Source of the DNA: an uncultured Coriobacteriaceae bacterium
GTDB lineage: Bacteria > Actinomycetota > Coriobacteriia > Coriobacteriales > Eggerthellaceae
DNA: 32,514 bases
Assembly (NCBI GenBank): GCA_902779135.1
Contig: CACZAR010000009.1
Coordinates: forward strand, 1 to 32,514
Direction of reading: 5' to 3'
A model generated the notes under the pieces. That model searched no databases. It was not told where the DNA came from and saw only the letters and a list, made by a program, of their open reading frames with translations. Numbering within the stretch: position 1 is the first letter of the stretch; each line of letters starts with the position of its first letter. Both the position numbers and the translations under genes were made by a program. Below are positions 1 to 15,253 of the stretch, piece after piece.

Positions 1-13
1 TTTGGTACCAAGG

Positions 14-39
14 CCTTACGGCGTCAAGGGACCGTAAGG
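14..39 (+). promoter_or_regulatory. Hairpin in the fhs leader
   Basis: CCTTACGG (14-21) and CCGTAAGG (32-39) form a perfect 8-bp inverted repeat with a 10-nt loop, ending 35 nt before the fhs start codon. It has no T-tract and leaves the ribosome binding site (AGGAGG, 61-66) free. It could be a leader stem or the end of an upstream transcription unit. The window edge prevents telling these apart. Confidence 0.3.
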
Positions 40-74
40 TATGGCAATAACGAGCTAATAAGGAGGCTTGAACA

Positions 75-1748
75 ATGGCAGACTACAAGTCCGACATCGA
101 GATCGCACAAGAAGCTAACATGCTTCCCATCGAAGAGGTTGCGAACAAGGCCGGCATCGACTGGGCTACCTGCGAGCCCTATGGTCACTACAAGGCCAAG
201 GTCGACATCCATTCCTACAAGGATGCCCCGATGAAGGCAAAGCTCATCCTCGTGACGGCTATCAACCCGACGCCGGCTGGCGAGGGCAAGACCACCACGT
301 CCGTGGGCTTGCATGACGCGCTGTGCGCAATCGGCAAGAGCTCCATGCTCGCTCTCCGCGAGCCGTCGCTGGGCCCCGTGTTCGGCGTCAAGGGTGGCGC
401 TGCTGGCGGCGGCTACGCCCAGGTCGTTCCCATGGAGGACATCAACCTGCACTTCACCGGCGACTTCCACGCCATCGGCGCTGCGAACAACCTCATCGCC
501 GCTATGCTCGACAACCACATCAAGCAGGGTAATGAGCTCGACATCGACCTCAACAACATCATTTGGCGCCGCTGCGTCGACATGAACGACCGTCAGCTGC
601 GCAACGTGGTCGACGGCCTCGGCACCGCTGGTGACGGCGTCTGCCGTGAGGACGGCTTCGACATCACCGTTGCTTCCGAGGTCATGGCTGTGTTCTGCCT
701 GGCCACCGACCTTGACGACCTCAAGGCCCGCCTCGGCCGCATCATCGTGGCTTACAGCCGCACCGGCAAGCCTGTCACCGTTTCCGACATCAAGGCTGAG
801 GGCGCTTGCACCGCGCTGCTCAAGGATGCCATCAAGCCGAACCTGGTTCAGACGCTCGAGAACAACCCGGCGTTCGTGCATGGCGGCCCCTTCGCCAACA
901 TCGCCCATGGCTGCAACTCCGTCCAGGCAACCACCACGGCCATGAAGATGGCTGACTACGTCGTTACCGAGGCTGGCTTCGGTGCTGACCTCGGTGCTGA
1001 GAAGTTCCTCGACATCAAGTGCCGCGCCGCCGGTCTCAAGCCGTCCTGCGTCGTCATCGTTGCTACCGTCCGCGCTCTCAAGCATCACGGTGGCGTTGCC
1101 AAGGCCGATCTGAACACCGAGAACCTCGAGGCTCTCGAGGCTGGTCTGCCGAACCTCCTGCAGCATGTCTCCAACGTCCAGGACGTCTACAAGCTCCCGG
1201 CCGTCGTTGCCATCAACGCCTTCCCGACCGACACCGAGGCCGAGCTCAAGCTCGTCCAGGACAAGTGCGCCGAGCTCGGCGTGAACGCTGTTCTGGCCGA
1301 GCACTGGGCAAAGGGCGGCGAGGGCGCCAAGGCCCTGGCCGAGGAAGTCGTCCGCGTTTGCGATCAGCCCAACGACTTCACCTTCAGCTACGAGGTCGAG
1401 CAGTCCATCGAGGAGAAGCTCAACGCCATCGCCACCAAGATCTATCATGCTGACGGCGTCGACTTCACCCCGAAGGCCAAGAAGCAGCTCGAGCAGCTCG
1501 AGCAGCTCGGTCTCGACAAGGTGCCGATCTGCGTTGCCAAGACCCAGTACTCCTTCGCTGACGACGCCACCAAGCTCGGCGCCCCGAAGGACTTCCGCAT
1601 CACGGTCCGCAACCTCAAGATCTCCGCTGGCGCTGGCTTCATCGTTGCGCTGACCGGCGAGATCATGACGATGCCTGGTCTGCCCAAGCGTCCGGCCGCC
1701 GAGAAGATCGACGTCACCGCTGACGGCAAGATCGTGGGCCTGTTCTAA
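75..1748 (+). CDS. fhs: Formate--tetrahydrofolate ligase
   Basis: This cytoplasmic enzyme joins formate to tetrahydrofolate using ATP to give 10-formyl-THF, the entry step of the folate C1 branch (acetogen methyl branch, purine synthesis). The 557-residue length is normal for the family. The nucleotide-binding loop TPAGEGKTT is at residues 66-74, and the family's [11 protein letters not shown] and [12 protein letters not shown] stretches follow at about residues 92-118. The ATG at 75 has a textbook AGGAGG 9 nt upstream. The downstream order fchA, folD, focA makes a formate-to-methylene-THF operon with its own formate channel. A perfect 12-bp hairpin follows the stop codon, so fhs may be made in excess over fchA and folD. 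Identification is by sequence recognition and is very secure; the direction of flux (assimilation or formate release with ATP gain) cannot be read from the DNA. Confidence 0.97.
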
Positions 1749-1763
1749 ATTAATCGCGCGATT

Positions 1764-1793
1764 GAAAGGGCAAGCTGTATTGCTTGCCCTTTC
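1764..1793 (+). terminator. Strong hairpin between fhs and fchA (partial terminator or attenuator)
   Basis: GAAAGGGCAAGC (1764-1775) pairs perfectly with GCTTGCCCTTTC (1782-1793) around a 6-nt loop. The right arm contributes a short T-run (TTTCTTG) but there is no long U-tract. The fchA ribosome binding site AAGGAG begins only a few bases later (about 1798). The hairpin therefore probably reduces read-through or protects the fhs message, rather than ending the operon. Confidence 0.6.
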
Positions 1794-1808
1794 TTGTAAG
1801 GAGACCAC

Positions 1809-2432
1809 ATGGCAGAGAAACTGATGGAGAAGAGCTGCATCGAGTTCGCCGACGCGCTTGCCGCTAAAGTGAGCGTGCCCGGTGGCGGTGGAGCCGCTGC
1901 ATACGTTGGCGCCCTGGGTGTGGCGCTCGGTAGCATGACCGCCAACTTCACCACGGGCAAGAAGAAGTACGCAGAGTACGAGGAAGACATCCAGCGCATT
2001 CTCGCCGAGGGCGATGTCATCCGCGCCAAGCTCATCGACCTGGTGTTCGCGGATGCCGAGGCGTTTGAGCCGCTGTCCAAGGCGTACGGCATTCCGAAGG
2101 AAGACCCGACGCGTGACCAGGTGCTCGAAGAGGCCACGGTGAACGCCCTCGAGGCTCCGATGGAAATGATGCGCCAGATCGCCAAGGCCATCGAGCTGCT
2201 CGAAGAGCTCAAGATCAAGGGCTCCAAGATGCTCATCAGCGACGTCGCATGCGGTGCCGTCATGAGTGCTGCGGCCATGCGTGCAGCTGCTCTGAACGTG
2301 TTCATCAACACGAAGAGCCTGCAGGATCGCGACTTGGCTGCAAAGCTCGAGGCAGAAGCCGACGAGCTGCTGGCCTTCGTGCCGCGTGCCAAGGTTGTTG
2401 CAGACGAGATTACCGACTACATCCGCGGCTAG
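1809..2432 (+). CDS. fchA: Methenyltetrahydrofolate cyclohydrolase (FTCD C-terminal-like)
   Basis: This 207-residue protein is recognisable as the stand-alone cyclodeaminase/cyclohydrolase family (FchA; C-terminal domain of formiminotransferase-cyclodeaminase). Members interconvert 10-formyl-THF and 5,10-methenyl-THF in the cytoplasm. The diagnostic glycine-rich stretch VPGGGGAAAYVGALG lies at about residues 23-37, followed by TANFTTGKKKY and a mostly helical body. Length is typical. The start ATG is preceded by TAAGGAG at 1797-1803. The gene lies between fhs and folD, which are the steps immediately before and after it. Because the neighbouring FolD seems to lack its cyclohydrolase lysine, FchA probably supplies all of this activity locally. 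A cyclodeaminase role in histidine degradation is possible in the family, but the C1-operon context argues against it. Confidence 0.93.
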   Translation: MAEKLMEKSCIEFADALAAKVSVPGGGGAAAYVGALGVALGSMTANFTTGKKKYAEYEEDIQRILAEGDVIRAKLIDLVFADAEAFEPLSKAYGIPKEDPTRDQVLEEATVNALEAPMEMMRQIAKAIELLEELKIKGSKMLISDVACGAVMSAAAMRAAALNVFINTKSLQDRDLAAKLEAEADELLAFVPRAKVVADEITDYIRG

Positions 2433-2465
2433 CGGTGGGTCGCACATCACGAAAGGAAGATTCAC

Positions 2466-3320
2466 ATGGCAGAAATCCTGAAGGGCAAGCCTGTAGCAGA
2501 TGCTATGAACGAGGAGCTCGCTCCCCGCATCGAGGCCTGCAAGGCCGCAGGCGTCACCCCGACGTTGGCCATCATCCGCGTGGGCGAGCGCGATGACGAC
2601 CTGTCCTACGAGCGTGGCGCGACGAAGCGCTGCGAGACGCTGGGCCTCGGGCTGAAGAAGTTCGTGCTTGCTGCAGATTGTACGCAAGAAGAGCTCATGG
2701 CTGCGATCGAGGAAGTCAACACCGATTCCGGCATCCATGGCTGCCTCATGTTCCGTCCGCTGCCGAAGCATCTCGACGAAGTTGCCGCCTGTGCAGCGCT
2801 CGATCCGGCGAAGGACTCCGACGGCATCACCCAGGGTTCGCTCTACGGCGTGTTCGCCAACCAGCCCGTGGGCTTCCCGCCCTGCACGGCCGATGCCTGC
2901 ATGGAGGTTCTGAAGCACTACGGCTACGAGCTGTCCGGCGCCAACGTCACGGTGCTCGGTCGTTCGCTCGTCATCGGCAAGCCCGTTTCCATGATGCTGC
3001 AGGCCGCCAATGCGACCGTCACCATGTGCCACACCCGCACCAAGGAGCTCGCCGCCAAGTGCGCAGCTGCCGACATCCTGGTCGTGGCCGTGGGTCGCGC
3101 CCGCACCGTCGGCGCTGACGCAGTGCGCGAGGGCCAAGTGGTCATCGACGTTGGCATCAACTGGGACGAGGAAGCCCAGAAGCTGTGCGGCGACGTGGAC
3201 TTCGACGCCGCCGAGCCGATCGTTGCCGCCATCACGCCCGTTCCCGGTGGCGTGGGCAGCGTGACCACGGCCATCCTGGCCAAGCATGTTGTCGAGGCTG
3301 CCGAGCGCACTTTGGCATAA
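2466..3320 (+). CDS. folD: Methylene-THF dehydrogenase FolD, probably without cyclohydrolase activity
   Basis: The 284-residue protein has the FolD fold and length. It oxidises or reduces 5,10-methylene-/methenyl-THF with a pyridine nucleotide. Recognisable blocks are the substrate segment around residues 46-56, PLPKHLDE (98-105), KDSDGIT (116-122), GFPPCTADA (about 136-144), the GRSLVIGKP dinucleotide-binding segment and PVPGGVGSVTT near the C-terminus. In bifunctional enzymes the substrate motif is YxxxKxK, whose first lysine drives the cyclohydrolase step. Here the motif reads YERGATK, placing alanine (A52, codon 2619-2621) at that position. The usual Gln in VQLPLP is also replaced (MFRPLP, F96). 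The second active-site aspartate (D119) is kept. The dehydrogenase is therefore probably intact and the cyclohydrolase lost, matching the adjacent fchA. The start ATG follows GAAAGGAAG at 2450-2458. Confidence 0.93.
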   Translation: MAEILKGKPVADAMNEELAPRIEACKAAGVTPTLAIIRVGERDDDLSYERGATKRCETLGLGLKKFVLAADCTQEELMAAIEEVNTDSGIHGCLMFRPLPKHLDEVAACAALDPAKDSDGITQGSLYGVFANQPVGFPPCTADACMEVLKHYGYELSGANVTVLGRSLVIGKPVSMMLQAANATVTMCHTRTKELAAKCAAADILVVAVGRARTVGADAVREGQVVIDVGINWDEEAQKLCGDVDFDAAEPIVAAITPVPGGVGSVTTAILAKHVVEAAERTLA

Positions 3321-3329
3321 AACTCTAGG

Positions 3330-3431
3330 GTGGAGTGCATAAAACAACCAGGTTGCATTATGCACTCCACTGGCAAACTGAACACATGTGACTTATTCCG
3401 CATAATGCAACCTGGTTGTTTTATGCACTCC
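3330..3431 (+). repeat. Long inverted repeat between folD and focA (nested palindromes)
   Basis: Two perfectly complementary 32-nt arms lie at 3332-3363 and 3400-3431 with a 36-nt spacer. The left arm is itself part of a near-perfect 41-nt palindrome (3330-3370). Its outer 13-bp arms are GTGGAGTGCATAA and TTATGCACTCCAC; the inner stem is CAACC-A-GGTTG. The right copy keeps the inner stem and 6 bp of the outer arm (GCATAA/TTATGC). The element fills almost the whole 132-nt gap before focA. It could be a paired operator for a dimeric regulator, a cruciform or terminator, or a small palindromic repeat present in two opposed copies. Confidence 0.85.
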
Positions 3432-3452
3432 TGAAAGGAAAGGGATTTGGGG

Positions 3453-4319
3453 ATGACAGAGGTTACTCCCGCAGATATCGCGGCGACTAAGCCGGATTGC
3501 CGAGGTGGGGCGGCAGTTCTTACCCAGGCTATGAATGTCGCCATCGGCAAGGCGAAACTGCCGTCCGGTCGTGCATTCATGCTCGGCATCATGGCGGGCA
3601 TGCTCATCGCCACTGGTGCAACGTTCATGCTGCTCACCAAGGGCGACACCACGCTCAGCTTCGCGCCTTCCCAGGTGCTCGGTGGTGTGGCGTTCTCGTT
3701 GGGTCTTCTGTGCGTCATCGTCGCAGGCGCCGAGCTGTTCACCGGCAACTGCCTGATGGTGTGCGCTGCTGCTGACGGTAAGATCAGCTGGCTCGACGTG
3801 CTCAAGAACTGGGTTGTCGTTTACCTTGGCAATCTTGTCGGTTCGCTGATCATCGTCGCCATCCTCATTGGCGGCAACTTTGCAGGTATGAACGGCGGTG
3901 CTGTGGGCAATGCCATGATCAATGTGGCGTATGGCAAGATCGCCCTTTCTCCGGCCGTCATCTTCTTCCGCGGCATCATGTGCAACTGGCTCGTATGCTT
4001 GGCAGTGTGGATGGGCTTTGCTGGTCGTACGGTCATCGACAAGGTCTTCACGTCGATGTTCCCGGTCGTTGCGTTCGTCGCTTGCGGCTTCGAGCACTGC
4101 GTTGCCAACATGTTCTTCCTGCCCATGGGCGTTGCTGCACTGAACACGTACGGCTATGTGGGCGATATCGATCCCACGAAGCTCGAGGCCATCATGAACA
4201 CGCTCAACATTGGCGGCGTGTGCTACAACATCGGCCTTGCCACGCTGGGCAACATCGTGGGCGGCGCCATCATGGTCGGTATGGTCTATTGGATCTCGTA
4301 CCGCCAGAAGAACGTGTAA
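3453..4319 (+). CDS. focA: Formate/nitrite family channel (FocA-like)
   Basis: This is a 288-residue integral membrane protein of the FNT family, which forms pentameric channels for formate or nitrite. About six hydrophobic segments are visible, starting near residue 38. Family marks are AELFTGN in the broken-helix region after TM2, FFRGIMCNWLVCLA, and FEHCVANMFF, which carries the pore histidine equivalent to FocA His209. The in-frame TTG at 3447 is not preferred: the ATG at 3453 has GGAAAGGG 9 nt upstream. Position directly after fhs-fchA-folD makes formate the likely substrate, feeding Fhs or exporting formate made by the pathway. Nitrite or hydrosulfide transport, known in other FNT members, cannot be excluded from sequence. 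The inverted repeat at 3330-3431 probably affects its expression. Confidence 0.92.
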   Translation: MTEVTPADIAATKPDCRGGAAVLTQAMNVAIGKAKLPSGRAFMLGIMAGMLIATGATFMLLTKGDTTLSFAPSQVLGGVAFSLGLLCVIVAGAELFTGNCLMVCAAADGKISWLDVLKNWVVVYLGNLVGSLIIVAILIGGNFAGMNGGAVGNAMINVAYGKIALSPAVIFFRGIMCNWLVCLAVWMGFAGRTVIDKVFTSMFPVVAFVACGFEHCVANMFFLPMGVAALNTYGYVGDIDPTKLEAIMNTLNIGGVCYNIGLATLGNIVGGAIMVGMVYWISYRQKNV

Positions 4320-4387
4320 AATAGTTTTGAAGAGCGAGAGAACAGGGTTTAGATAGACTCGCAACGAGAAGCGTCGGGTACAGCTTA

Positions 4388-4442
4388 GGGTCGAGCGGCC
4401 ACTCGACCCCGGGCAATCAGGCATCCGGGGCTTTAGAAGCCC
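4388..4442 (+). terminator. Three overlapping GC-rich hairpins after focA
   Basis: GGGTCGAG/CTCGACCC (4388-4395 and 4402-4409), CCCCGG/CCGGGG (4407-4412 and 4425-4430) and GGGCTT/AAGCCC (4428-4433 and 4437-4442) overlap, so they cannot all form together. Mutually exclusive stems suggest either a factor-assisted terminator for focA or a switch in the hydrogenase leader. No U-tract of note follows (ATTTGG). I could not match the region to a riboswitch class I know. Confidence 0.4.
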
Positions 4443-4669
4443 ATTTGGAGTGTGCTCTCAGCCCAAAGTGGTGTCCTATTAGGACGCATTGTGGGTTTTG
4501 CACAACAAAGAATGTAACTTTAGTCGTTGTTGTATTCAAGGCGTCGAGCACAAAAAGCTCGAACGTTGCAAAACAATCGCCGAGCGGGTCTACCAACATT
4601 CCCAAATCTCGTCTTCCAATATGTGGTGGAGCACGAACAGGTTTCTGTTTTCGAAGAGAGAGGGATGTG
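4443..4669 (+). promoter_or_regulatory. Leader/promoter region of the hydrogenase genes
   Basis: These 227 bases precede the hydrogenase flavoprotein start at 4670; with the hairpins at 4388-4442 the focA-hydrogenase gap is 350 nt. An open frame runs through it from a TTG at 4445, but its translation is unlike any domain and it lacks a ribosome binding site, so it is treated as non-coding. Visible signals are a 13-nt palindrome GTCCTATTAGGAC (4473-4485), a TTGTG-N7-CACAA dyad (4489-4505), and a TCGAGC/GCTCGA hairpin (4544-4549 and 4557-4562). The dyads are candidate operators; no regulator can be assigned. Confidence 0.35.
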
Positions 4670-6508
4670 ATGAGTCGTCTAGCAATTGGCTCCTACGTCG
4701 ATGACAACAAGCGCATCGGCGAGTTCTTGGAGTCGTACTCCCGTCGCGTCGAGAGCATGCCCCCGGGCACGTGCCCGATTGCAGTGCAGCAGTCCTTGCT
4801 GCAGACCTGCGCAGCTCAGACGTGTGGTAAATGCACCCCATGCCGTGAGGGCATTCCGAGAATCCTCGCGGACATGGAAGCGGTGCTGTCGTATGAGGCA
4901 GATGAAAGCATTGTTGCGGACATCCGCAAGCGCGCGCGTCTTCTGCGCGATACGGCAGACTGCGCAATTGGATACAACGCAGGTGATCTGGTCCTCCAGG
5001 GCCTCGACGCCTTTGAAGCTGAATATGCCAGCCATGTTCAGCGCGGCATCTGCGCTGAGGAATCCGAGCAGACAGTCCCGTGCGTGACCTTGTGCCCGGC
5101 TCACGTGAACGTGCCGGCGTACATTTCGCTCGTACAAGAGGGCGACTGCGCGGGCGCCATCAAGATGATCCGCAAGGACAATCCGTTCCCCACGGCTTGC
5201 GCGCTCGTGTGCGAGCATCCGTGTGAGGAACACTGCCGTCGCACGTTGGTCGACGCTCCGCTCAACATCCGCGGTATCAAGAAGTATGCCGTCGATACCA
5301 TCGCAGCTGACCAGGTCGAAACGCCTGCGCGCGCCGAATCAACTGGCAAGCGCGTGGCTGTCATCGGCGGTGGTCCGTCCGGCATGACCTGCGCGTATTT
5401 TAGCGCTCTCATGGGTCACGACGTCACGGTGTTCGAAAGCCGCAAGAAGCTTGGTGGCATGATGCGTTACGGCATCCCGGCGTACCGCTTCCCGCGCGAG
5501 CGCTTGGACGAGGACATCCGCGCCATTCTGAGCGTGGGTGGCATCGAGGTCAAGTACGAGCATGACGTCAATGACGCGGAGATGAAGCGCATTGCGGAGG
5601 AATACGATGCCGTTTACGTCGCCGTTGGTGCGCAAGGAGGCAAGAGCCTCAGGATCGACGGCGTCGATCTGCCGGGCGTCATGAGTGCTGTCGAACTGCT
5701 TGAAAAGGCCGGCGATGACGAGCTTCCCGATTTCACCGGCAAAAATGTGGTTGTGATCGGCGGTGGCAACGTTGCCATGGACTGCGCACGTACGAGCGTG
5801 CGTGCTGGCGCCAAGGAAGTTGTCGTGGCGTATCGCCGCAGGCTCGAAGACATGACGGCACTTGAAGAGGAAGTTCATGCCGCATTGGCAGAAGGCGTCG
5901 AGATGGTCGTTTTGCAGGCGCCTGTGCGAATCGAGGCAAACGAAGAAGGCTCCGTTGGCGCACTCATCTGCCAGCCTCAGCGCATCGGCGCTGTAAAGGG
6001 TGGACGTCCGGCTCCGGTTGCCGCGAACAAACCGGAGGTGAGCATCGATGCTGATATCGTGCTCATCGCAGTCGGCCAGGATATCAAGAGCGCTCCGTTT
6101 GAGGAGTTCGGCATGAAAGCCGAGCGCACTCATTTCGTTGCAGATGAGTTCTTGCGTGCAGACGGCTTCGAGAACGTTTTTGTCGGCGGAGACTGCCAAT
6201 GGGGTCCGAAGACCGTCATTATGGCAATTGCCGCTGGTAAGATTGCCGCACGCAACATCGACGAATACTTCGGCTATAACCATGAGATCGATTGCGGTGC
6301 CGAGGTTCCGCCCGCGCGTCCGAACGACCGCACGCAGTACGGGCGCGTTGCAGTTCCCGAACGTCCCATCCAGCGCCGCAAGCATGATTTCGAGCATGTC
6401 GAACTGCCCATGACAAAGGAAGAGGCGCTTCAAGAATGCGGTCGCTGCCTGCGCTGCGATGTGTTCGGCATAGGCGCACTGACCGGAAGGGGGCTGGAGC
6501 AATGGTAA
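4670..6508 (+). CDS. NuoF-FeS / GltD-like FAD-NAD(P)H oxidoreductase, hydrogenase partner subunit
   Basis: The 612-residue flavoprotein probably moves electrons between NAD(P)H and HydA. Residues 40-100 match the C-terminal [4Fe-4S] domain of NuoF/HydB: TCGKCTPCREG with C52, C55, C58 and C98 in CX2CX2CX39C spacing. The FMN/NADH-binding core of NuoF is absent. Residues 135-215 form a GltD-type N-terminal cluster domain (C138, C142, C177, C181, C185, C189). Residues 228-535 form the GltD/NfnB two-dinucleotide fold, with VIGGGPSG (231-238) for FAD, VIGGGNVAMD (362-371) for NAD(P)H and FVGGDC (504-509). A CGRCLRC motif (590-596) is near the end. ATG 4670 has AGAGAGGG upstream and gives the first recognisable domain; the frame opens at TTG 4445. 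The stop overlaps the hydA start by 7 nt, implying coupled translation. It resembles the glutamate-synthase-linked [FeFe] hydrogenase partners (group A2 as I recall the classification). Confidence 0.85.
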   Translation: MSRLAIGSYVDDNKRIGEFLESYSRRVESMPPGTCPIAVQQSLLQTCAAQTCGKCTPCREGIPRILADMEAVLSYEADESIVADIRKRARLLRDTADCAIGYNAGDLVLQGLDAFEAEYASHVQRGICAEESEQTVPCVTLCPAHVNVPAYISLVQEGDCAGAIKMIRKDNPFPTACALVCEHPCEEHCRRTLVDAPLNIRGIKKYAVDTIAADQVETPARAESTGKRVAVIGGGPSGMTCAYFSALMGHDVTVFESRKKLGGMMRYGIPAYRFPRERLDEDIRAILSVGGIEVKYEHDVNDAEMKRIAEEYDAVYVAVGAQGGKSLRIDGVDLPGVMSAVELLEKAGDDELPDFTGKNVVVIGGGNVAMDCARTSVRAGAKEVVVAYRRRLEDMTALEEEVHAALAEGVEMVVLQAPVRIEANEEGSVGALICQPQRIGAVKGGRPAPVAANKPEVSIDADIVLIAVGQDIKSAPFEEFGMKAERTHFVADEFLRADGFENVFVGGDCQWGPKTVIMAIAAGKIAARNIDEYFGYNHEIDCGAEVPPARPNDRTQYGRVAVPERPIQRRKHDFEHVELPMTKEEALQECGRCLRCDVFGIGALTGRGLEQW

Positions 6509-8214
6509 ACCTGATCGTCGACGGTAAAGAAATTCAGGCCCGTGAGGGCATGACCCTGCTTGGCGCATGCGGCAAGGCTGGCGCCGACATCCCCACGCTG
6601 TGCTGGATGAAGGGCCTCAACGACATCGCATCGTGCCGCGTCTGCCTCGTTGAGTGCGACGGCGAGCTCATCGCATCGTGCAACACGCAGGTTCGCGAGG
6701 GCATGGTCGTCAACACCGGCACGCCCCGCGTCGTGGATGCTCGTCGTTCCAATCTCGCGACGCTCATGGAGAATCACCGCTACGAGTGCGGCACTTGCGT
6801 TCGCCAGGAGACCTGCGCTCTGCGTACGCTTGCGAGCGAGTTCAACGTCAAGGATGCAGAATTCTATCTGCCCGAGAAGGCTCCGTGGGACGAATCGTTC
6901 CCGCTGATTCGCGATGCTTCGAAGTGCATCAAGTGCATGCGCTGCGTGGCCGAATGCGCCAAGGTGCAGCATTGCGCCGTGTGGGAGCACTCCGGTGCTG
7001 GCCCGCACATGAACGTGTTCGTGAAGGAAGGCCTCGAAATCGACGCGGCTGGATGCGCTCTTTGTGGTCAGTGCATCACGCATTGCCCGACCGGCGCGCT
7101 CACCGCGCGTGACGATGTTGACGTCGTGATGGACGCCATCCTCGACCCCGAGGTCATGACCGTCGTGCAAGTGGCTCCCGCCGTTCGCGCCGCATGGGGC
7201 GAAGGCGTGGGCGTTGCCCGCGAGGATGCAACCCCTGGCCGCATGGCTTCGGCTCTGCGCGCTCTTGGGTTCGACAAGGTGTTTGACACCGACTTCGCAG
7301 CTGACCTGACGATCATGGAGGAAGGCAGCGAGTTCGTTGAGTTCGTCGGTTCCGACAAGCCTCGTCCGATGTTCACGAGCTGCTGCCCGGGTTGGGTGCG
7401 CTTCGTGAAGTTGCATTACCCGCAATTTGTGGCTCAGCTGTCCAGTGCCAAGTCCCCTCATCAGATGATGGGTGCTGTGGTGAAGAACACGCTTGCCGCC
7501 GAGATGGAAGCAGCCGGCAAGAAGCGCATGTTCGTCGTGTCGGTCATGCCGTGCGTTGCCAAGAAGTACGAGTGCAGCGTTCCGCAGCTCTCCACCGAAG
7601 CAGGCCCCGACGTCGACGCCGTGTTGACGGTGCGCGAGTTCGACCGCATGCTCAACATGTACCGCGTCGACTGCAACGCGCTCGAAGAGACCGAGTTCGA
7701 CAACCCGCTGGGACTCTCGACAGGTGCCGGTACGATCTTCGGCCGCACGGGTGGCGTTATGGAAGCCGCGCTGCGTTCGGCTGTGTTCCTGATCACGGGC
7801 GAGAACCCCGACTTCTCGGCATGCGATACGACCGAGTCGACGCCCGAGAAGCCTTGGGTTGCGAAGCACCTCGAGGTGGCTGGCATTCCGGTCGACATCG
7901 CGGTTGCCAGCGGCTTGGGCAACACCGCCAAGCTGCTCGACGCTCTCGAGGCAGGCGAAGCGCGCTTCGATTTCGTCGAGATCATGGCATGCCCTGGTGG
8001 TTGCGTAGGTGGCGGCGGACAGCCCATCGAGTTCAACAAGGAACTTGCATGCGAGCGTGCTGCGAATCTCAATTCGCTCGACGCAGGGGACAAGCTGCGC
8101 TATTCGCACGAGAACCCGGATGTTCAGAAGTTGTACGAGGATTGGGTTGGCAAGCCGCTGTCCCATACGGCGCACGAGTGGCTGCACACCGATCAGGAGA
8201 CATGGGATATTTAA
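6502..8214 (+). CDS. hydA: [FeFe]-hydrogenase catalytic subunit
   Basis: This 570-residue protein is the size of the clostridial CpI enzyme and interconverts H2 with protons and electrons. An N-terminal [2Fe-2S] domain has C34, C45, C48 and C60. A His-Cys [4Fe-4S] site follows (H92, C96, C99, C105), then two ferredoxin clusters (C142/C145/C148/C152 and C185/C188/C191/C195). All three H-cluster signatures are complete: TSCCPGW (292-298), MPCVAKKYE (349-357) and EIMACPGGCVGGGGQP (493-508). The cysteine next to the cluster ligand in TSCC, used for proton transfer, is present. No signal peptide is seen, so it is cytoplasmic. ATG 6502 overlaps the upstream flavoprotein gene by 7 nt and has GGGGGCTGGAG before it. 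With the GltD-like partner, electrons likely exchange with NAD(P)H and possibly ferredoxin. The maturases follow directly. Confidence 0.96.
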   Translation: MVNLIVDGKEIQAREGMTLLGACGKAGADIPTLCWMKGLNDIASCRVCLVECDGELIASCNTQVREGMVVNTGTPRVVDARRSNLATLMENHRYECGTCVRQETCALRTLASEFNVKDAEFYLPEKAPWDESFPLIRDASKCIKCMRCVAECAKVQHCAVWEHSGAGPHMNVFVKEGLEIDAAGCALCGQCITHCPTGALTARDDVDVVMDAILDPEVMTVVQVAPAVRAAWGEGVGVAREDATPGRMASALRALGFDKVFDTDFAADLTIMEEGSEFVEFVGSDKPRPMFTSCCPGWVRFVKLHYPQFVAQLSSAKSPHQMMGAVVKNTLAAEMEAAGKKRMFVVSVMPCVAKKYECSVPQLSTEAGPDVDAVLTVREFDRMLNMYRVDCNALEETEFDNPLGLSTGAGTIFGRTGGVMEAALRSAVFLITGENPDFSACDTTESTPEKPWVAKHLEVAGIPVDIAVASGLGNTAKLLDALEAGEARFDFVEIMACPGGCVGGGGQPIEFNKELACERAANLNSLDAGDKLRYSHENPDVQKLYEDWVGKPLSHTAHEWLHTDQETWDI

Positions 8215-8243
8215 CGTAACTCCCAGATAACCTGGAATTTTCA

Positions 8244-8282
8244 GGGATGCCGACGTTTTCCGATATTGCACGTCGGCATCCC
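8244..8282 (+). terminator. 12-bp hairpin between hydA and hydE
   Basis: GGGATGCCGACG (8244-8255) and CGTCGGCATCCC (8271-8282) are perfectly complementary around a 15-nt loop that begins with TTTT. The ATG at 8247, the upstream-most start of the hydE frame, lies inside the left arm. This argues that translation starts further down, and that the stem separates structural-gene and maturase expression by partial termination or mRNA processing. Confidence 0.55.
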
Positions 8283-8300
8283 ACATTAATTAGTGAACGC

Positions 8301-9374
8301 ATGAGCGAACTGATATCGACAACTAATTCAATGGGGGAGCTTGCCACCAAGCTCTGCGAGCTTCGCTGCCTTTCGGTCGACGAGTACGCAAAACTCATCA
8401 GCGAGCGTGCCGAGGGAGACGCCAAAGGGTTGGCGGAGTTCGCTTACAAAGAGTGCGAGCGTGTGTATGGGGATGCCGTTTTTTCGCGCGGCCTCATCGA
8501 GTTCACGAATTACTGCGCCAACGATTGTCTGTACTGCGGTATCCGCAGGGGAAATGCGGAATGCAATCGCTATCGCTTGACCGATGATCAGATTGCCGCA
8601 TGCGCTGAGCAGGGCTACGAATTGGGTTTTCGAACGTTCGTGTTGCAGGGGGGCGAAGACCCGCATTCGACTGACGAGTGGCTGTGCCGTATCGTGCGCT
8701 CGCTCAAGGAGGCGCACCCTGATTGTGCGGTTACGCTGTCGGTTGGCGAGCGCAGCCGCGAGAGTTATGCGCGGTTGAGAGAAGCTGGGGCGGATCGTTA
8801 TCTGCTGCGCCACGAGACCGCGTCGCCCGTTCATTACCGCAAGCTGCATCCGCGTTCCATGTCTTACGAAAACCGCATGCGGTGTTTGGGCGACTTGCGT
8901 GACTTGGGTTATGCCGTGGGGGTGGGGTTCATGGTGGGATCTCCGTTCCAGACCCCGTCTGACCTGGCTGCTGACTTGAAGTTCATCGAGCAATTCAAAC
9001 CCGAGATGTGCGGCATCGGACCATTTGTTCCACACCACGCGACTCCGTTTGCCGGCTATGCAGGCGGGACGGTCGAGTTGACCTGTTTTTTGCTTTCAAT
9101 TATTCGGATTATCCAGCCCAACATATTGCTGCCGGCGACGACGGCGCTGGGAACGATTGATGACGAAGGGCGGGAAAAGGGCATATTGGCCGGCGCGAAC
9201 GTGGTCATGCCCAACCTGTCGCCCGCCGAAGTGCGGGCTGACTACGAGCTATATGACAACAAGATTTGCACGGGCGACGAGGCGGCCGAATGCGCAGGCT
9301 GCTTGGGCGCGCGCATGCTCGCCGTCGGGAGACGACTCGTCGTCGACCGCGGCGATCCGAAGGAGGCTGCCTGA
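8301..9374 (+). CDS. hydE: [FeFe]-hydrogenase maturase HydE (radical SAM)
   Basis: HydE is a radical SAM enzyme needed to build the azadithiolate-bridged diiron subcluster of HydA. The protein is 357 residues from ATG 8301 and has the CX3CX2C SAM cluster motif NYCANDCLYC (C72, C76, C79), then VLQGGEDP typical of HydE/BioB-like barrels. Near the C-terminus ICTGDEAAECAGC has the CX7CX2C spacing of the auxiliary cluster seen in Thermotoga HydE. The frame is open from ATG 8247, but that codon is inside a hairpin and its residues do not match the family. ATG 8301 or ATG 8331 (347 aa) fits better. Neither has a clear ribosome binding site, so the exact start is uncertain. HydG starts 2 nt after the stop, so both maturases are co-translated. 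Confidence 0.94.
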   Translation: MSELISTTNSMGELATKLCELRCLSVDEYAKLISERAEGDAKGLAEFAYKECERVYGDAVFSRGLIEFTNYCANDCLYCGIRRGNAECNRYRLTDDQIAACAEQGYELGFRTFVLQGGEDPHSTDEWLCRIVRSLKEAHPDCAVTLSVGERSRESYARLREAGADRYLLRHETASPVHYRKLHPRSMSYENRMRCLGDLRDLGYAVGVGFMVGSPFQTPSDLAADLKFIEQFKPEMCGIGPFVPHHATPFAGYAGGTVELTCFLLSIIRIIQPNILLPATTALGTIDDEGREKGILAGANVVMPNLSPAEVRADYELYDNKICTGDEAAECAGCLGARMLAVGRRLVVDRGDPKEAA

Positions 9375-9375
9375 T

Positions 9376-10824
9376 ATGGCGCTCTACGACCCGAAATCGC
9401 CCTGCGCGGACGAGTTCATCAACCATCAGGAAATAGTGGATACGCTTGCCTATGCCGAGGCCCACAAAGATGACCTCGACCTATGCAGGCGTATTCTCGC
9501 GAAGGCGCATCCAAACGTCGCGCCCAAGGAAGAGCATTGCACTTGCATCACCCATCGTGAGGCTGCCGTCTTGCTGATGTGCGACGACCCGGGCATCAAT
9601 GCGGAGATCAAGCAGTTGGCCAGGCAGATCAAGCTTGCCTATTACGGCAACCGCATCGTCCTGTTCGCACCGCTTTATCTTTCGAACTATTGCGTGAACG
9701 GCTGCCTGTACTGCCCGTACCACGCCAAGAATCGCACGATTCCCCGTCGAAAGCTGACGCAGGATGAAATCCGCGCGGAAGTGATTGCGCTTCAGGATAT
9801 GGGGCACAAACGGCTTGCCATCGAGGCGGGCGAGGACCCGAAGAACAGTCCCATCGAGTACATCCTCGAATCGATGAAGACCATCTATTCCATCAAGCAT
9901 AAAAACGGTGCGATTCGTCGCGTGAACGTGAACATTGCTGCAACGACGGTCGATGAGTATCGGATGCTGAAGGAAGCAGAGATTGGCACGTACATCCTGT
10001 TCCAAGAGACCTATCACAAGGAAAACTACCTCGAGCTGCATCCGACGGGCCCCAAACACGATTACTGCTGGCACACCGAGGCGCATGACCGCGCCATGGA
10101 AGCCGGCATCGACGATGTGGGGCTCGGCGTGCTGTTCGGGTTGGACAACTATGCGTACGAGCTCGTGGGCTTGTTGATGCATGCCGAGCATCTCGAGGCG
10201 CGGTTCGGCGTTGGGCCGCATACCATCAGCGTGCCGCGCGTGAAGCCGGCTGACGACATCGATCCGACCGATTTCGACAATTCGTTGACCGACGAGCTAT
10301 TCGAGAAGATCATCGCGCTCATTCGTGTCGCCGTGCCCTACACGGGCATGATCATTTCGACGCGCGAGTCGCAGGCAGTGCGCGAGAAGGCGTTGCAGTA
10401 CGGCATCTCGCAGATATCGGGCGGATCACGCACGAGCGTCGGCGGTTACGTGGACGAGGAGCGCCCGCACGATACCGAGCAGTTCGACGTGTCGGACCAG
10501 CGCACACTCGACGAGGTTATCAACTGGCTCATGGAGAACGGTCATATCCCAAGCTTCTGCACAGCGTGTTATCGCGCTGGCCGAACGGGGGACCGGTTCA
10601 TGGATTTCTGCAAATCGGGCGAGATACTAAATTATTGTCATCCGAATGCGCTCATGACGCTTGCCGAGTACTTGACCGACTATGCGACGCCGGCGACGGC
10701 GGAGCGCGGTTGGCGAATGATTGCCGATGAGGTGACGAAGATTCCCGATGCCCGCCGCAGGGAGATCTGCGCGGCGAACATCGAGGCGATCCGCTCGGGC
10801 GACGCGCGCGATTTCAGGTTCTAA
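9376..10824 (+). CDS. hydG: [FeFe]-hydrogenase maturase HydG (tyrosine lyase)
   Basis: HydG cleaves tyrosine to yield the CO and CN- ligands of the H-cluster, delivered on an Fe synthon. The 482-residue length is typical. The radical SAM cluster motif NYCVNGCLYC gives C106, C110 and C113. The C-terminal auxiliary cluster motif is complete as CX2CX22C (C395, C398, C421), which separates HydG from the related ThiH. The frame is open from 9157, but ATG 9376 has AAGGAGG at 9360-9366 and matches the family N-terminus, so the upstream part is overlap with hydE. It sits 2 nt after the hydE stop. With hydE and hydF nearby, the full maturation set is present and HydA should be active. Confidence 0.96.
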   Translation: MALYDPKSPCADEFINHQEIVDTLAYAEAHKDDLDLCRRILAKAHPNVAPKEEHCTCITHREAAVLLMCDDPGINAEIKQLARQIKLAYYGNRIVLFAPLYLSNYCVNGCLYCPYHAKNRTIPRRKLTQDEIRAEVIALQDMGHKRLAIEAGEDPKNSPIEYILESMKTIYSIKHKNGAIRRVNVNIAATTVDEYRMLKEAEIGTYILFQETYHKENYLELHPTGPKHDYCWHTEAHDRAMEAGIDDVGLGVLFGLDNYAYELVGLLMHAEHLEARFGVGPHTISVPRVKPADDIDPTDFDNSLTDELFEKIIALIRVAVPYTGMIISTRESQAVREKALQYGISQISGGSRTSVGGYVDEERPHDTEQFDVSDQRTLDEVINWLMENGHIPSFCTACYRAGRTGDRFMDFCKSGEILNYCHPNALMTLAEYLTDYATPATAERGWRMIADEVTKIPDARRREICAANIEAIRSGDARDFRF

Positions 10825-10864
10825 CAGCGGACTGGAAGGCAGGATTTCCACGGCGATCTGGCCC

Positions 10865-10985
10865 GATCATTTTCCCCGGGGGAAATTGATTTCGTCTGAT
10901 CAAGTTCCCCCGGGGAAAATGATTGGCGGTAGGATTTCGAGGGAATCAAGTTCCCCCGGGGAAAACGATTTCCCGCGGGGAAGAC
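10865..10985 (+). repeat. Palindromic repeat cluster A (4 copies) upstream of hydF
   Basis: Four copies of a GC-centred palindrome lie between hydG and hydF, with cores TTTCCCCGGGGGAAA, TTCCCCCGGGGAA (twice) and TTCCCGCGGGGAA. Flanks read GATCA/AATCA on the left and TGATT/CGATT on the right, so the whole unit of about 27 nt is nearly symmetric. The last copy ends just before the hydF ribosome binding site. The same family recurs at 15104-15186, 16821-16890 and 25123-25374. Confidence 0.85.
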
Positions 10986-10997
10986 GGGAGGAGAGAA

Positions 10998-12221
10998 GTG
11001 GCAGGGTTGAACGAGACGCCTTCGGGCGAGCGGGTTCACATCGGTTTCTTCGGCGTGCGCAACGCAGGCAAGTCGAGCCTCGTGAACGCTGTTACGGGTC
11101 AAGATCTTGCTGTCGTGTCGGATACGCCGGGCACGACGACCGACCCGGTGCGCAAGGCCATGGAGCTCTTGCCGGTCGGCCCCGTCCTGATCATCGACAC
11201 GCCGGGCATCGACGACGAAGGAGAGCTCGGTGACCTACGCGTTCAGAAAGCGCGCCGTGCGCTCGACTTCGTCGACGTAGCCGTGCTCGTCGTCGATTCG
11301 ACGAGAGGGCTCTCGCCGGTCGACATGGCGCTCATCAACGAATTCCAGAACAGGCGCGTCTCCTATATTATTGTTTCGAGCAAGGCCGATCTGATGCCCG
11401 ACGCCGTTGACCCAGATTCGGGTCTCGTGGAGCTCGACGAGAGCGGTGTGAAGCGTGCGCGGATCAGGGTTTCTTCAAAAGACAGATGGGGTATTGAGGA
11501 GTTGAAGGGCGTTATCGCCTCGCTTGCTTCACAAGTTGAGCGCCAGAACAAGCTCGTTTCCGATCTTCTAGAGCCAGGTGATGTGACCGTTCTCGTCGTT
11601 CCGATTGACTCAGCCGCACCGAAGGGGCGCCTCATCCTTCCGCAGCAGCAAGTCATTCGCGACATCGTTGAGGCTGGAGCTCAGGCATGCGTGACGTCGG
11701 TCGAGGGGTTACCGACGATGCTAACCGCTTTGACAAGCCCTCCCAGGCTCGTCATCACTGATTCGCAGGTGTTCGGAGCTGTCGCCAAAATCGTGCCTGC
11801 TGAGGTTCCGCTCACCTCGTTCTCAATACTCATGGCTCGTTACAAGGGTACGTTGCCCGACCAAATCGACGCAGTTGAGGCACTTGAGAAGCTGGACGAT
11901 ACGAGCTGTGTGCTCATATCGGAAGGTTGCACGCACCATCGCCAGTGCGAAGACATTGGAACGGTGAAGATTCCCCGATGGGTTCGCTCGGTATGCGGCG
12001 CAAACCCGCGTTTCGAGTTCACGTCAGGCGGTGAGTTTCCACGCGATCTTTCGCGCTACGATGCGGTCATCCATTGCGGAGGCTGCATGCTCAACGCGCG
12101 CGAGATGGAAAGCCGTGCTGGTATAGCGCGGGAACAAGACGTGCCGTTCACGAACTACGGTATGGCCATTGCAAAGGCGAACGGCGTGTTCGACAGGGCT
12201 ATAGCGTCGATTACATCCTAA
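10998..12221 (+). CDS. hydF: [FeFe]-hydrogenase maturase HydF (GTPase scaffold)
   Basis: HydF is the GTPase scaffold that carries the diiron precursor made by HydE and HydG and transfers it to HydA. The protein is 407 residues from GTG 10998, which has GGAGGAG at 10987-10993. The N-terminal GTPase domain shows the P-loop GVRNAGKS (19-26), switch threonines near 46-48, DTPG (67-70) and SKAD (128-131) in place of the usual NKxD. The C-terminal cluster-binding motif is complete as CXHX46CX2C (C311, H313, C360, C363). The frame opens upstream at 10923, but that part translates the palindromic repeats and has no family similarity. A small AGGCG/CGCCT stem at 12298-12311 overlaps the convergent gene's stop and may help end transcription. 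Confidence 0.95.
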   Translation: MAGLNETPSGERVHIGFFGVRNAGKSSLVNAVTGQDLAVVSDTPGTTTDPVRKAMELLPVGPVLIIDTPGIDDEGELGDLRVQKARRALDFVDVAVLVVDSTRGLSPVDMALINEFQNRRVSYIIVSSKADLMPDAVDPDSGLVELDESGVKRARIRVSSKDRWGIEELKGVIASLASQVERQNKLVSDLLEPGDVTVLVVPIDSAAPKGRLILPQQQVIRDIVEAGAQACVTSVEGLPTMLTALTSPPRLVITDSQVFGAVAKIVPAEVPLTSFSILMARYKGTLPDQIDAVEALEKLDDTSCVLISEGCTHHRQCEDIGTVKIPRWVRSVCGANPRFEFTSGGEFPRDLSRYDAVIHCGGCMLNAREMESRAGIAREQDVPFTNYGMAIAKANGVFDRAIASITS

Positions 12222-12302
12222 AGGTGGATGACATAGACGATTGGGCAATGCATCCCGGAATGTGATGGGGACAACGATGCGCGCTTATGTCGCAACTAGG
12301 CG

Positions 12303-12668
12303 CTAACGCCTGAGCAAGAACGAAATGCGCAGATACGAACGCTCAGCTGGATTGGAAAGATCGCAACCGGTGATTTCCTGGATGCGATGCACTCGGTACA
12401 CGAGCGAATTGCGGTGCAGGAACAGCAGCCTACCGCACTTCTGGGCGTTGCAGTCGTTCTCCAAATAGACCCTCAGCGTGCGCAGCAAATCGGTTTGGTT
12501 CTCGCGATCGTAGCGTTCGATGATGTCGAGTGCGGGATGCAGCAAGCTGTCGATTTCGCAGTTCTCGCGGATGGTGCCGACCAGCATATCCAGCGCAGCG
12601 TCAACTGAACGACCAGCTGTATACGTCTGGGCATTTTCATCTGTGACTTGGATGTGTTCGACTTGCAC
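12303..12668 (-). CDS. PucR/CdaR-type C-terminal HTH protein, probably a truncated remnant
   Basis: The 121-residue frame matches only the C-terminal DNA-binding domain of PucR/CdaR-family activators. After a short N-terminal part it has LLRTLRVYLENDCNAQ, then LFLHRNSLVYRVHRI, which is the family helix-turn-helix, and RSYLRISFLL at the end. Family members normally carry several hundred residues of sensor region in front; here an in-frame TAA occurs eight codons before the GTG start and no coding continuation is seen upstream. The start is a GTG with only a weak GGAAA before it. It converges on hydF and faces away from the cobalamin riboswitch. Most likely a decaying regulator; a stand-alone small HTH protein is possible. 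Confidence 0.55.
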   Translation of the reverse strand: MQVEHIQVTDENAQTYTAGRSVDAALDMLVGTIRENCEIDSLLHPALDIIERYDRENQTDLLRTLRVYLENDCNAQKCGRLLFLHRNSLVYRVHRIQEITGCDLSNPAERSYLRISFLLRR

Positions 12669-12989
12669 TTTCCGGACCGCTTTCCGCGCTTATGGCAGTG
12701 AGGCACCTGTCAAACTTGTTACTTTTCTTTGGTAATAAAATTATTTTATATAACGACTACAGAGATGTAAACAGGTAGTTGTGAGGATAATTTAAACAGC
12801 GATAACTTTGTCATTTTGCACAACCTTAGGATTTTCCTAATCGTTTCACCCAAAAAGGCAGCAGAGACCTTGTGAGAAGAATATAATTGCCCTACACATG
12901 GGCTTCCGCTCGTGCATTTGTTGCTGGTTTTATGGTCGTTAGTCCAGAGCAACGAATGCCGAGCCTCGGGGTCCGTTGATAACTGCATA
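12669..12989 (+). promoter_or_regulatory. AT-rich promoter region of the cobalamin-riboswitch operon
   Basis: These 321 bases hold no gene. The first part (about 12715-12860) is strikingly AT-rich for this genome (AAAATTATTTTATATAA near 12736). A good sigma-A-type -10 box TATAAT is at 12882-12887, about 100 nt before the aptamer. No convincing -35 box is seen at 16-18 bp spacing. Transcription from here would carry the riboswitch at 12990-13103 into the lipoprotein and chelatase genes. Confidence 0.5.
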
Positions 12990-13103
12990 GGGGACAGTCG
13001 TCGTACCGTGGAAGCGGACGCGCTGGGGGAATCGGGTGCGAATCCCGAGCAAGGGCCATTACTGTGAGGCGCAAGCTGCAGCCAGAATGCCCAGCCTGTC
13101 TTG
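12990..13103 (+). promoter_or_regulatory. Cobalamin riboswitch, short form
   Basis: Conserved aptamer pieces occur in order. They are GGGGGAATCGGGTGCGAATC (13025-13044), giving the P5 stem TCGGG/CCCGA, then GGCCATTACTGTGA (13054-13067) and the B12 box GCCAGAATGCCCAGCCTGTC (13081-13100). GACAG (12993-12997) and CTGTC (13096-13100) can close P1. Only about 13 nt separate ACTGTGA from GCCAG, so the large peripheral arm of the classic form is missing, as in class-II or variant cobalamin aptamers. Bound cobalamin would be expected to turn off the downstream lipoprotein, cbiK and possibly fec genes. Confidence 0.88.
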
Positions 13104-13146
13104 TTGAATGCACATACTATGAACCCTGGTGGTGTGTGTTCGCTGC

Positions 13147-13177
13147 TGAGGAGCGGGCCCTGCCCAAGTGCTCCTCA
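13147..13177 (+). terminator. Expression-platform hairpin after the cobalamin aptamer
   Basis: TGAGGAGC (13147-13154) pairs with GCTCCTCA (13170-13177), and GGGC/GCCC (13155-13158 and 13162-13165) extends the stem inward. It lies 44 nt after the B12 box and about 90 nt before the first gene. Downstream bases are CGTCTCTTCCC, pyrimidine-rich but not a U-run. It is a reasonable candidate for the regulated terminator of the riboswitch. Confidence 0.5.
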
Positions 13178-13269
13178 CGTCTCTTCCCAATAACGATTGT
13201 CGCCTAAGTAAACGTGCGAATGCGTTTCGCGTCGCACGAACGATTGTTTCGTTGCAAGGGGGAGAGGGT

Positions 13270-13824: not shown

Positions 13825-13845
13825 ACAACTGAGGGAAGGAAAACA

Positions 13846-15039: not shown

Positions 15040-15060
15040 ACTGCGTCCCTCCCTTTCCCG

Positions 15061-15098
15061 GCGGGGCGGGAGCCACACGGTTCTCGCCCCGCTCTTTT
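15061..15098 (+). terminator. Terminator after cbiK
   Basis: GCGGGGCG (15061-15068) pairs with CGCCCCGC (15085-15092), and further pairs close the loop side. CTCTTTTCC follows immediately. This is a GC-rich stem with a T-rich tail, 22 nt after the cbiK stop. The downstream FecB-like gene therefore probably has its own promoter or is reached only by read-through. Confidence 0.75.
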
Positions 15099-15103
15099 CC
15101 TCA

Positions 15104-15186
15104 ATCGTTTTCCCCGTGGGAAAATGATTGGGGGATAGTCGAAATGCTTTCCCCGCGGGAAACTGATTTCCTGCGGGGAAGCGATT
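15104..15186 (+). repeat. Palindromic repeat cluster B (3 copies)
   Basis: Three units of the TTCCCCSSGGGAA palindrome family lie between the cbiK terminator and the FecB-like gene. The cores are TTTTCCCCGTGGGAAAA (about 15108-15124), TTTCCCCGCGGGAAA and TTCCTGCGGGGAA. Each is followed by a GATT-type flank. The first core has a GT/GG deviation that weakens the symmetry. Confidence 0.8.
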
Positions 15187-15214
15187 CGGATTATGATTTG
15201 CTTACAGGGCGATG

Positions 15215-15253
15215 GCCTCTCCAAGCGCGCATGTTGGGCGCTCTTGGAGAGGC
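15215..15253 (+). promoter_or_regulatory. Hairpin in the leader of the FecB-like gene
   Basis: GCCTCTCCAAG (15215-15225) is perfectly complementary to CTTGGAGAGGC (15243-15253), with CGC/GCG able to extend the stem past a small bulge. A TATGAT -10-like box is at 15192-15197, about 20 nt earlier, so the stem would be near the 5' end of the message. The ribosome binding region (GGGGG, 15267-15271) lies outside it. A stabilising or regulatory leader stem is likely. Confidence 0.45.

Follow-up and report, generated by a model that had tools for sequence, protein, structure and literature searches.

[FeFe] hydrogenases tied to a GltD-type protein have been described before. The HydDB classification places them in group A2, called 'glutamate synthase-linked' with an undetermined role; its criterion is that HydA be followed by a protein with a GltD-type but no NuoF domain (PMC5037454). 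Group A2 hydrogenases are reported to be expressed or abundant in the rumen and the human gut (PMC6776011, PMC12578642), and all three papers leave their role unresolved, in agreement with an earlier note on the DNA analysed here, which had called the function of this subtype poorly established. In Pelobacter carbinolicus, an SfrB-like protein was proposed in 2012 as the NADPH-oxidising partner of an [FeFe] hydrogenase (PMC3543383), so that this kind of pair and its predicted cofactor were already known. Here, we analysed such a pair, a HydA and the diaphorase subunit encoded just before it, in a 32.5-kb stretch (the window) that is the entire contig CACZAR010000009.1 of an uncultured Coriobacteriaceae bacterium, whose genome comprises 202 contigs and is 83.5% complete. 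Judged by its sequence, the pair appears to be an ordinary member of a known hydrogenase kind with a predicted function, and what is unexpected, and well supported, is the history of partner exchange behind it. The two genes and the parts of their products that matter for the argument are as follows:

4670-6508, + strand: SfrB/PRK12771-type diaphorase subunit, 612 amino acids, with a NuoF N3-type 4Fe-4S domain and a GltD-type FAD/NAD(P)H module
4820-4963, + strand: NuoF-type (N3-like) 4Fe-4S motif C52-x2-C55-x2-C58-x39-C98 (PF10589), the cluster proposed to dock on HydA and to hand electrons on to it
5081-5287, + strand: Fer4_20 cluster region with C138, C142, C177, C181, C185, C189 and K204 (Pfam and alignment)
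5366-6237, + strand: Pyr_redox_2 module (residues about 233-523), with GGGPSG for FAD and GGGNVA ... YRRR for NAD(P)H
6437-6457, + strand: C-terminal CGRCLRC segment (C590, C593, C596), permuted relative to NfnB
6502-8214, + strand: HydA, catalytic subunit of [FeFe] hydrogenase, 570 amino acids (Pfam, NCBIfam)
6598-7086, + strand: HydA [2Fe-2S] ligands C34, C45, C48 and C60, His-ligated 4Fe-4S ligands H92, C96, C99 and C105, and two 4Fe-4S motifs
7375-8025, + strand: H-cluster motifs TSCCPGW, MPCVAKKYE and MACPGGCVGGGGQP (motif positions)

The partner subunit had been described in the earlier note as keeping only the iron-sulfur domain of NuoF, fused to a GltD/NfnB-type module with extra cysteine motifs, and this description holds. 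A scan of both proteins with 18 Pfam families (E<=0.001) found NADH_4Fe-4S (PF10589) at residues 40-122 of the diaphorase, with the exact CX2CX2CX39C motif, Fer4_20 (PF14691) at 135-213 and Pyr_redox_2 at 228-523. The FMN domain of NuoF (PF01512) was not found in it at this threshold, and the identical scan detects that domain in the full NuoF of the same genome. The NCBIfam family is NF009410/PRK12771 (618 bits, above the cut-off of 516). Among 100 homologues with a partner label (four sequences lacking one were excluded), fourteen cysteines (35, 52, 55, 58, 98, 128, 138, 142, 177, 181, 185, 189, 593 and 596) and the arginine pair R389/R390 are present in all 100, and C590 is variable. Two of the invariant cysteines, C35 and C128, lie outside the recognised cluster motifs and perhaps belong to a further cluster or serve as an inter-domain ligand.

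By sequence, the best solved relatives of the diaphorase are A and C subunits of Nfn-ABC and StnABC (9bov_A, 8.3e-98; 9n5u_A, 9.8e-87; 8oh5_C, 1.6e-83), and NfnB-type chains rank below them. An AlphaFold2 model (mean predicted local distance difference score 85.2, predicted template modelling score 0.77) gave the same order in a structural search: the Nfn-ABC/StnABC chains scored Z 42.8-39.5 and aligned to residue 604-606 (9bov_A, 42.8; StnC, 8oh5_C, 41.9), NfnB-type chains scored 35.7-34.2 and aligned to 536-538 only, and GltD scored 34.1 and 31.3. This search barely covers the residues before 134, i.e. the NuoF-type domain. The N-terminal CxxC segment of the NfnB-type chain 5vj7_A (residues 7-47) aligns to the C-terminus of the diaphorase (558-598), and StnC is collinear with it. 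Thus, in these alignments the GltD-type module is a circular permutation of its NfnB counterpart, and this accounts for the seemingly extra C-terminal cysteine motif.

In HydA, Pfam recognises PF02906 and PF02256 behind a front end of Fer2_4, NADH-G_4Fe-4S_3 and Fer4, and the protein lies above the cut-off of TIGR02512 (426.1 bits, cut-off 405.95). All three H-cluster motifs are present, the third reading MACPGGC, and the [2Fe-2S] and 4Fe-4S ligands listed above are unchanged in 20 aligned HydA sequences. With respect to classification, the diaphorase carries the GltD-type domain without NuoF that defines A2 (NF009410 above cut-off, PF10589 without PF01512), and on this sequence evidence the pair fits group A2. 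The HydDB rule asks for that protein immediately downstream of hydA; in the window the diaphorase lies upstream and hydE downstream, so the rule as worded would assign the enzyme to A1. A classifier rule keyed to the downstream gene would therefore miss such enzymes.

The diaphorase is found with two catalytic hosts. At 42 loci of named genomes, and at many more in Eggerthellaceae genomes, its gene is followed by hydA or by a gene (fdhA) for a formate dehydrogenase with a NuoG-type N-terminus, the latter often with an in-frame TGA. Across 189 diaphorase loci, many of them overlapping, a search limited to 3 kb of downstream genes found hydA at 91, fdhA at 89, a contig end at 6 and neither gene at 3. 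At least 108 of 138 Eggerthellaceae genomes encode a protein above the PRK12771 cut-off and 65 have a HydA match; the diaphorase gene lies just upstream of 60 of the 67 HydA matches that have their N-terminus (counted from 79 HydA and 127 partner entries, after excluding five second pieces of split HydA matches and lower-scoring entries that are not PRK12771-like). The remaining seven comprise two at contig ends, two with NuoF and three (G013, G014 and G100) with neither in the stretch examined. The 7-nt overlap with hydA that had been noted earlier (ATGGTAA, 6502-6508) is confirmed and recurs in 59 of 69 distinct hydA junctions, with five overlaps of 8 nt and five junctions without a start codon at the predicted place, and an 8-nt overlap is found in 39 of 62 fdhA junctions. 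The conserved overlap and the recurrence of the pair argue against a chance arrangement. Eubacterium oxidoreducens has one diaphorase paired with HydA and another paired with a formate dehydrogenase; with TGA read as selenocysteine, this formate dehydrogenase scores 826.7 bits with TIGR01591, and selD and yedF adjoin.

Several individual loci depart from these two arrangements. Two diaphorase homologues (L015, 6001-7776, and L167) lack both hydA and fdhA in the 3 kb that follow them, and a third partner is possible. The third locus with neither gene is L021 (the same contig as L208), where the diaphorase frame runs into hydA and both are joined in one open frame of 1086 amino acids (663-3923); diaphorase residues 423-557 are absent and 558-612 match in another frame, and the join may be a natural fusion, decay or an assembly error. 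At L043, a HydA fragment lies upstream of the diaphorase. In G013 (63% complete), a window-type HydA (65%) with HydE and HydG has no diaphorase in the 2 kb upstream (L170, contig C6, 126794-132503), and the only listed diaphorase adjoins a formate dehydrogenase gene, making it a candidate plug for two enzymes in trans.

For the trees, sets of 158 and 95 sequences were reduced to 104 at 92% identity and to 63 at 93% identity, respectively, and L005 or L006, which are 98-99% identical, stood in for the window. The diaphorase tree of 104 sequences needs six changes of the hydrogenase label, at least five of which are forced by well-supported branches. The window's diaphorase belongs to a clade of 11 hydrogenase-linked sequences, sister to six formate-dehydrogenase-linked ones and placed inside a 66-member clade that is mostly formate-dehydrogenase-linked, and 34 further hydrogenase-linked diaphorases, clostridial and from Eggerthellaceae, form part of a separate clade of 38. 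Forcing all 50 hydrogenase-linked diaphorases into one clade is worse by 236.8 log units (approximately unbiased, AU, test, p 0.00012). The HydA tree tells a different history: the window's HydA falls in a fully supported Eggerthellaceae clade of 24 sequences that mixes both diaphorase types. In the window's genus, two sister groups of HydA differ in their partners: G113, L006, L007 and the family member G102 have formate-type diaphorases, and G114, G118, G122 and G124 have classical ones that are 51-53% identical to the window's; these sister hydrogenases are 77-78% identical and are joined to two unrelated-looking diaphorases. The AU test also rejects a single clade of the 19 HydA whose diaphorases are of the formate type (365 log units worse, p 0.00077) and a single clade of the diaphorases of L005, L007, L058, L193 and L195, which accompany closely related HydA (283 log units worse, p 2.6e-9).

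The conflict between the subunit trees (AU p<0.001) indicates that partners were exchanged. The N-terminal docking domains of the two catalytic subunits do not intermix: those of 48 FdhA sequences form one clade, with a mean identity to HydA of 37%, so that only the diaphorase moved. The C-termini point the same way: a tryptophan ends 34 of 34 classical hydrogenase-linked diaphorases and none of 50 formate-dehydrogenase-linked ones; among 16 exchanged diaphorases, 11 end in tryptophan and five (L067, L186, L187, L188 and L204) keep the formate-type end. Mixing of contigs is an unlikely explanation, as many genomes have the two overlapping genes on a single contig, including G102, where the contig with the pair is 3.17 Mb long. 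Two points complicate this history: the trees were quick ones, with SH-aLRT (Shimodaira-Hasegawa-like approximate likelihood ratio) support, midpoint rooting and groups for the AU tests named after the trees had been seen, and two formate-dehydrogenase-linked diaphorases (L033 and L169, the latter on a long branch) fall in an otherwise hydrogenase-linked clade. Even so, the placement of the diaphorase in a formate-dehydrogenase lineage and of HydA with its hydrogenase relatives gives good support to an exchange of partners. We lean towards the broader view that an interchangeable NADP(H) plug has moved several times between formate dehydrogenases and [FeFe] hydrogenases in Eggerthellaceae, the docking and catalytic parts being kept, and that one copy may serve both enzymes in some cells. 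If true, H2, formate and NADPH would be joined by one swappable subunit. No account of a diaphorase exchanged between formate dehydrogenase and hydrogenase was found in the literature searched, in which few subscription papers were covered, and this is weak evidence of novelty.

With regard to function, we think it likely that the pair is a soluble, reversible and non-bifurcating H2:NADP+ oxidoreductase based on a heterodimer. NADP(H) would swap a hydride with the FAD of the GltD-type module, from which electrons would move one at a time along both Fer4_20 clusters and reach the NuoF N3-type 4Fe-4S cluster; this cluster would dock on the N1b-like [2Fe-2S] of HydA, as NuoF does on NuoG, and a 4Fe-4S chain would lead on to the H-cluster. 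The step from N3 to [2Fe-2S] is modelled on the NuoF-NuoG arrangement of complex I. The retained part of NuoF would thus be a plug for a NuoG-like N-terminus, with its NADH/FMN part swapped for an NADPH/FAD part. We infer in this way the formation of a complex, the cofactor, the electron path, the absence of bifurcation and the direction. Among the matches listed, 32 of 56 pair-bearing family genomes (18 of 31 at a completeness of at least 95%) have no NADH_4Fe-4S protein independent of the diaphorase, which suggests that HydB is not needed. Together with the lack of the FMN domain in the diaphorase, of a NuoE-type or FMN-bearing NuoF-type subunit among the window proteins scanned at 75-18737 and of an NfnA-like FAD/[2Fe-2S] domain among those scanned in the window, this makes a linear chain the simplest solution. 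The earlier note had proposed a two-subunit NAD(P)H-linked hydrogenase, which now appears the most likely function, with family membership pointing to NADP(H).

NADP is preferred over NAD for several reasons. The diaphorase family also provides the beta subunit of NuoG-type formate dehydrogenases, and for the purified enzyme of Moorella thermoacetica, whose beta subunit is sfrB2, NADPH was the only reductant (PMC13040438). To form NADPH, E. oxidoreducens reportedly relies on H2 or formate (PMC10470551), although it also shows other hydrogenase- and formate dehydrogenase-like matches. Furthermore, the GxGxxA motif is taken as NADP(H)-type (PMC7483475) and the arginine pair follows the second Rossmann motif. 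With NADPH at about -370 mV (PMC10482914) and H2 at about -340 mV at 250 Pa (PMC6288185), low H2 would favour H2 release by NADPH and high H2 the formation of NADPH, and the enzyme probably works near equilibrium. The neighbouring formate-folate genes suggest that H2-derived NADPH could feed FolD.

Several observations weigh against this NADP-linked, non-bifurcating function. Sequence does not decide between NAD(H) and NADP(H), the closest solved chains to HydA are bifurcating HydA1 (8a6t_A, E 1.4e-149; 7q4v_A), and the top NCBIfam HydA model is that of NADH-dependent group A6, at 672.9 bits under a cut-off of 765. Next to an aldehyde ferredoxin oxidoreductase, the genome also encodes a full set of NuoF and NuoE, which could in principle serve HydA too. 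An NAD(H)-dependent, non-bifurcating hydrogenase with a reaction comparable to that of the Syntrophomonas wolfei enzyme, which reportedly is a non-bifurcating NADH hydrogenase, nevertheless seems unlikely to us. Reduction of NAD is the guess of HydDB for A2 (PMC5037454), but the conserved Arg pair and GxGxxA, which is taken as NADP(H)-type (PMC7483475), speak against it, and the M. thermoacetica formate dehydrogenase is specific for NADPH (PMC13040438). We regard as similarly improbable the electron bifurcation that the earlier note had allowed for, in which the GltD-type FAD would split electrons between HydA and ferredoxin or NAD+ in the manner of NfnB, even though the module is homologous to NfnB, R273 is conserved and HydA has a long Fe-S chain that could also meet ferredoxin. 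In StnABC, the GltD-type FAD was found not to bifurcate, and the ligand of the adjacent cluster is Lys170 (or Cys114), as against the Glu of NfnB (PMC10482914). At the K170 column of the alignment (5jca_L not included), the window's protein (K204), all 100 labelled homologues and the chains 9bov_A, 9n5u_A and 8oh5_C have Lys; 4ylf_B and 5vj7_A have Glu. Moreover, the gene cluster has no NfnA-like or HydB/HydC-like member, and the 32 genomes in which no other NuoF-type 4Fe-4S protein was found speak against bifurcation too. Taking Lys as a bar to bifurcation is an analogy with one studied complex, and the other two Lys-bearing StnC-type chains belong to complexes that bifurcate, at another flavin (PMC9304861, PMC10482914). 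R273 (R201 in NfnB, where it contacts FAD N5, and R239 in StnC) is Arg in all, and so does not discriminate between the two.

A HydA that uses ferredoxin only (A1-like), with its neighbour working elsewhere, for instance as a formate dehydrogenase subunit in trans, is very unlikely. G013 would fit it, with a HydA lacking an upstream partner and a partner homologue next to formate dehydrogenase, but the 60 of 67 adjacent matches and the conserved overlap speak against it, and among the 8 of 20 molybdopterin matches checked in the window's genome none is a NuoG-type formate dehydrogenase. Least credible of all is a hydrogenase feeding glutamate synthase directly, as the A2 group name and the GltD-type fold might suggest: the single Glu_synthase match of the genome is on another contig (C5), the StnC-type structural match beats GltD (Z 41.9 versus 34.1 and 31.3), and relatives of the diaphorase pair with formate dehydrogenase instead.

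The full NuoF/NuoE set of the genome lies on contig C16 (L004, C16:1-14000), where positions 4573-10285 encode an aldehyde ferredoxin oxidoreductase of the tungsten type (PF01314/PF02730), a 4Fe-4S protein and NuoE-, full NuoF- and HoxU-like proteins; this gene content suggests an operon for an aldehyde oxidoreductase that is bifurcating or NAD-linked. Its full NuoF is the only full NuoF-type 4Fe-4S match of the genome. A supply of HydB and HydC in trans from this set was considered and seems less likely, as they more probably belong to the PF01314/PF02730 genes that they accompany. A further GltD-type module, 33% identical to the window's diaphorase, is part of a frame of ~1008 amino acids on contig C31 (L206, about 5028-6464, - strand).

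The pair is flanked by folate one-carbon genes and a transporter gene on one side and by maturase genes on the other:

75-1748, + strand: formate-tetrahydrofolate ligase (Pfam), folate one-carbon gene
1809-2432, + strand: formiminotransferase-cyclodeaminase family protein (Pfam), folate one-carbon gene
2466-3320, + strand: FolD (Pfam), folate one-carbon gene
3447-4319, + strand: FocA-like formate/nitrite transporter (TIGR04060, 231 bits, under the cut-off of 290)
8247-9374, + strand: HydE maturase (TIGR03956, 530.7 bits)
9376-10824, + strand: HydG maturase (TIGR03955, 854.4 bits)
10923-12221 (start provisional), + strand: HydF maturase GTPase (TIGR03918, 534.7 bits)

HydE, HydF and HydG all lie inside the window and each scores above its NCBIfam cut-off. 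The order of the folate genes at 75-3320 is kept in the relative L007, and FolD uses NADP. A link to the Wood-Ljungdahl pathway was set aside: CdhC/acetyl-CoA synthase gave no match in the 83.5%-complete genome and only the folate branch was seen. Scans of 1-13900 for promoters and terminators were also set aside, as they gave numbers near those expected from shuffled sequence (7 versus 4.5 and 9 versus 12.2, respectively). Further along, 13846-18737 encodes a CbiK-like cobaltochelatase that is extended at its N-terminus, a NEAT/periplasmic-binding protein (the NEAT match being just below cut-off), a FecCD permease and an ABC ATPase, i.e. a corrinoid/heme/iron uptake set. An oligopeptide/nickel-type ABC transporter (two ATPases, two permeases and an SBP_bac_5 binding protein) follows on the - strand at 18807-23899. 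Positions 25433-30025 encode a GAF-domain ABC ATPase and, after it, an FtsX-type permease of 1113 amino acids. The nearest named relatives of this genome are Eggerthellaceae and Coriobacteriaceae metagenome-assembled genomes, two of them from sheep and goat gut samples.

We believe that the prediction made here, i.e. NADP+ as acceptor, no bifurcation and a diaphorase shared with formate dehydrogenase, makes the role of group A2 testable, a role that bears on the flow of H2 and formate in ruminants and people. The exchange history makes function easier to predict and to test, as sister hydrogenases joined to two diaphorases represent a natural experiment.

Compared with known systems, the pair shares with HydDB group A2 a group A HydA tied to a GltD-type protein short of a full NuoF, and differs in that the linked protein is upstream and not downstream as in the rule (PMC5037454). 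As in the window, HndD-1 (Pcar_2502) of P. carbinolicus is an [FeFe] hydrogenase adjoining an SfrB-like protein (Pcar_2503), but that pair is from another phylum, is itself a prediction, has no maturase cluster alongside as far as described and is likened here by description only (PMC3543383). The NADP-dependent formate dehydrogenase of M. thermoacetica has a beta subunit of the SfrB kind and electron entry through a NuoG-type N-terminus, but its catalytic subunit is a W/Se one, and again the likeness is by description, not sequence (PMC13040438). HydABC (8a6t, 7q4v, 7p5h) has a homologous HydA (E 1.4e-149) and the NuoF 4Fe-4S domain, but also FMN-bearing HydB and HydC; no such subunit is encoded alongside the window pair, which bears out the distinction from HydABC drawn in the earlier note. 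A hexameric NADP+-reducing [FeFe] hydrogenase of M. thermoacetica has reportedly been described by Rosenbaum and Mueller in 2024. It resembles the proposed enzyme in H2-driven reduction of NADP+ and differs in having six subunits; in vitro, according to the text available, it works in the uptake direction only, with no H2 formed from NADPH (PMC13391211). StnC and the A subunits of Nfn-ABC (8oh5, 9bov, 9n5u) share with the window's diaphorase the GltD-type FAD module, the proximal Lys and the C-terminal permutation. In those complexes the fusion partner of the module is NuoG-like, and the recipient is a separate FMN module that bifurcates; in the window the fusion partner is a NuoF 4Fe-4S domain, and the recipient would be a hydrogenase.

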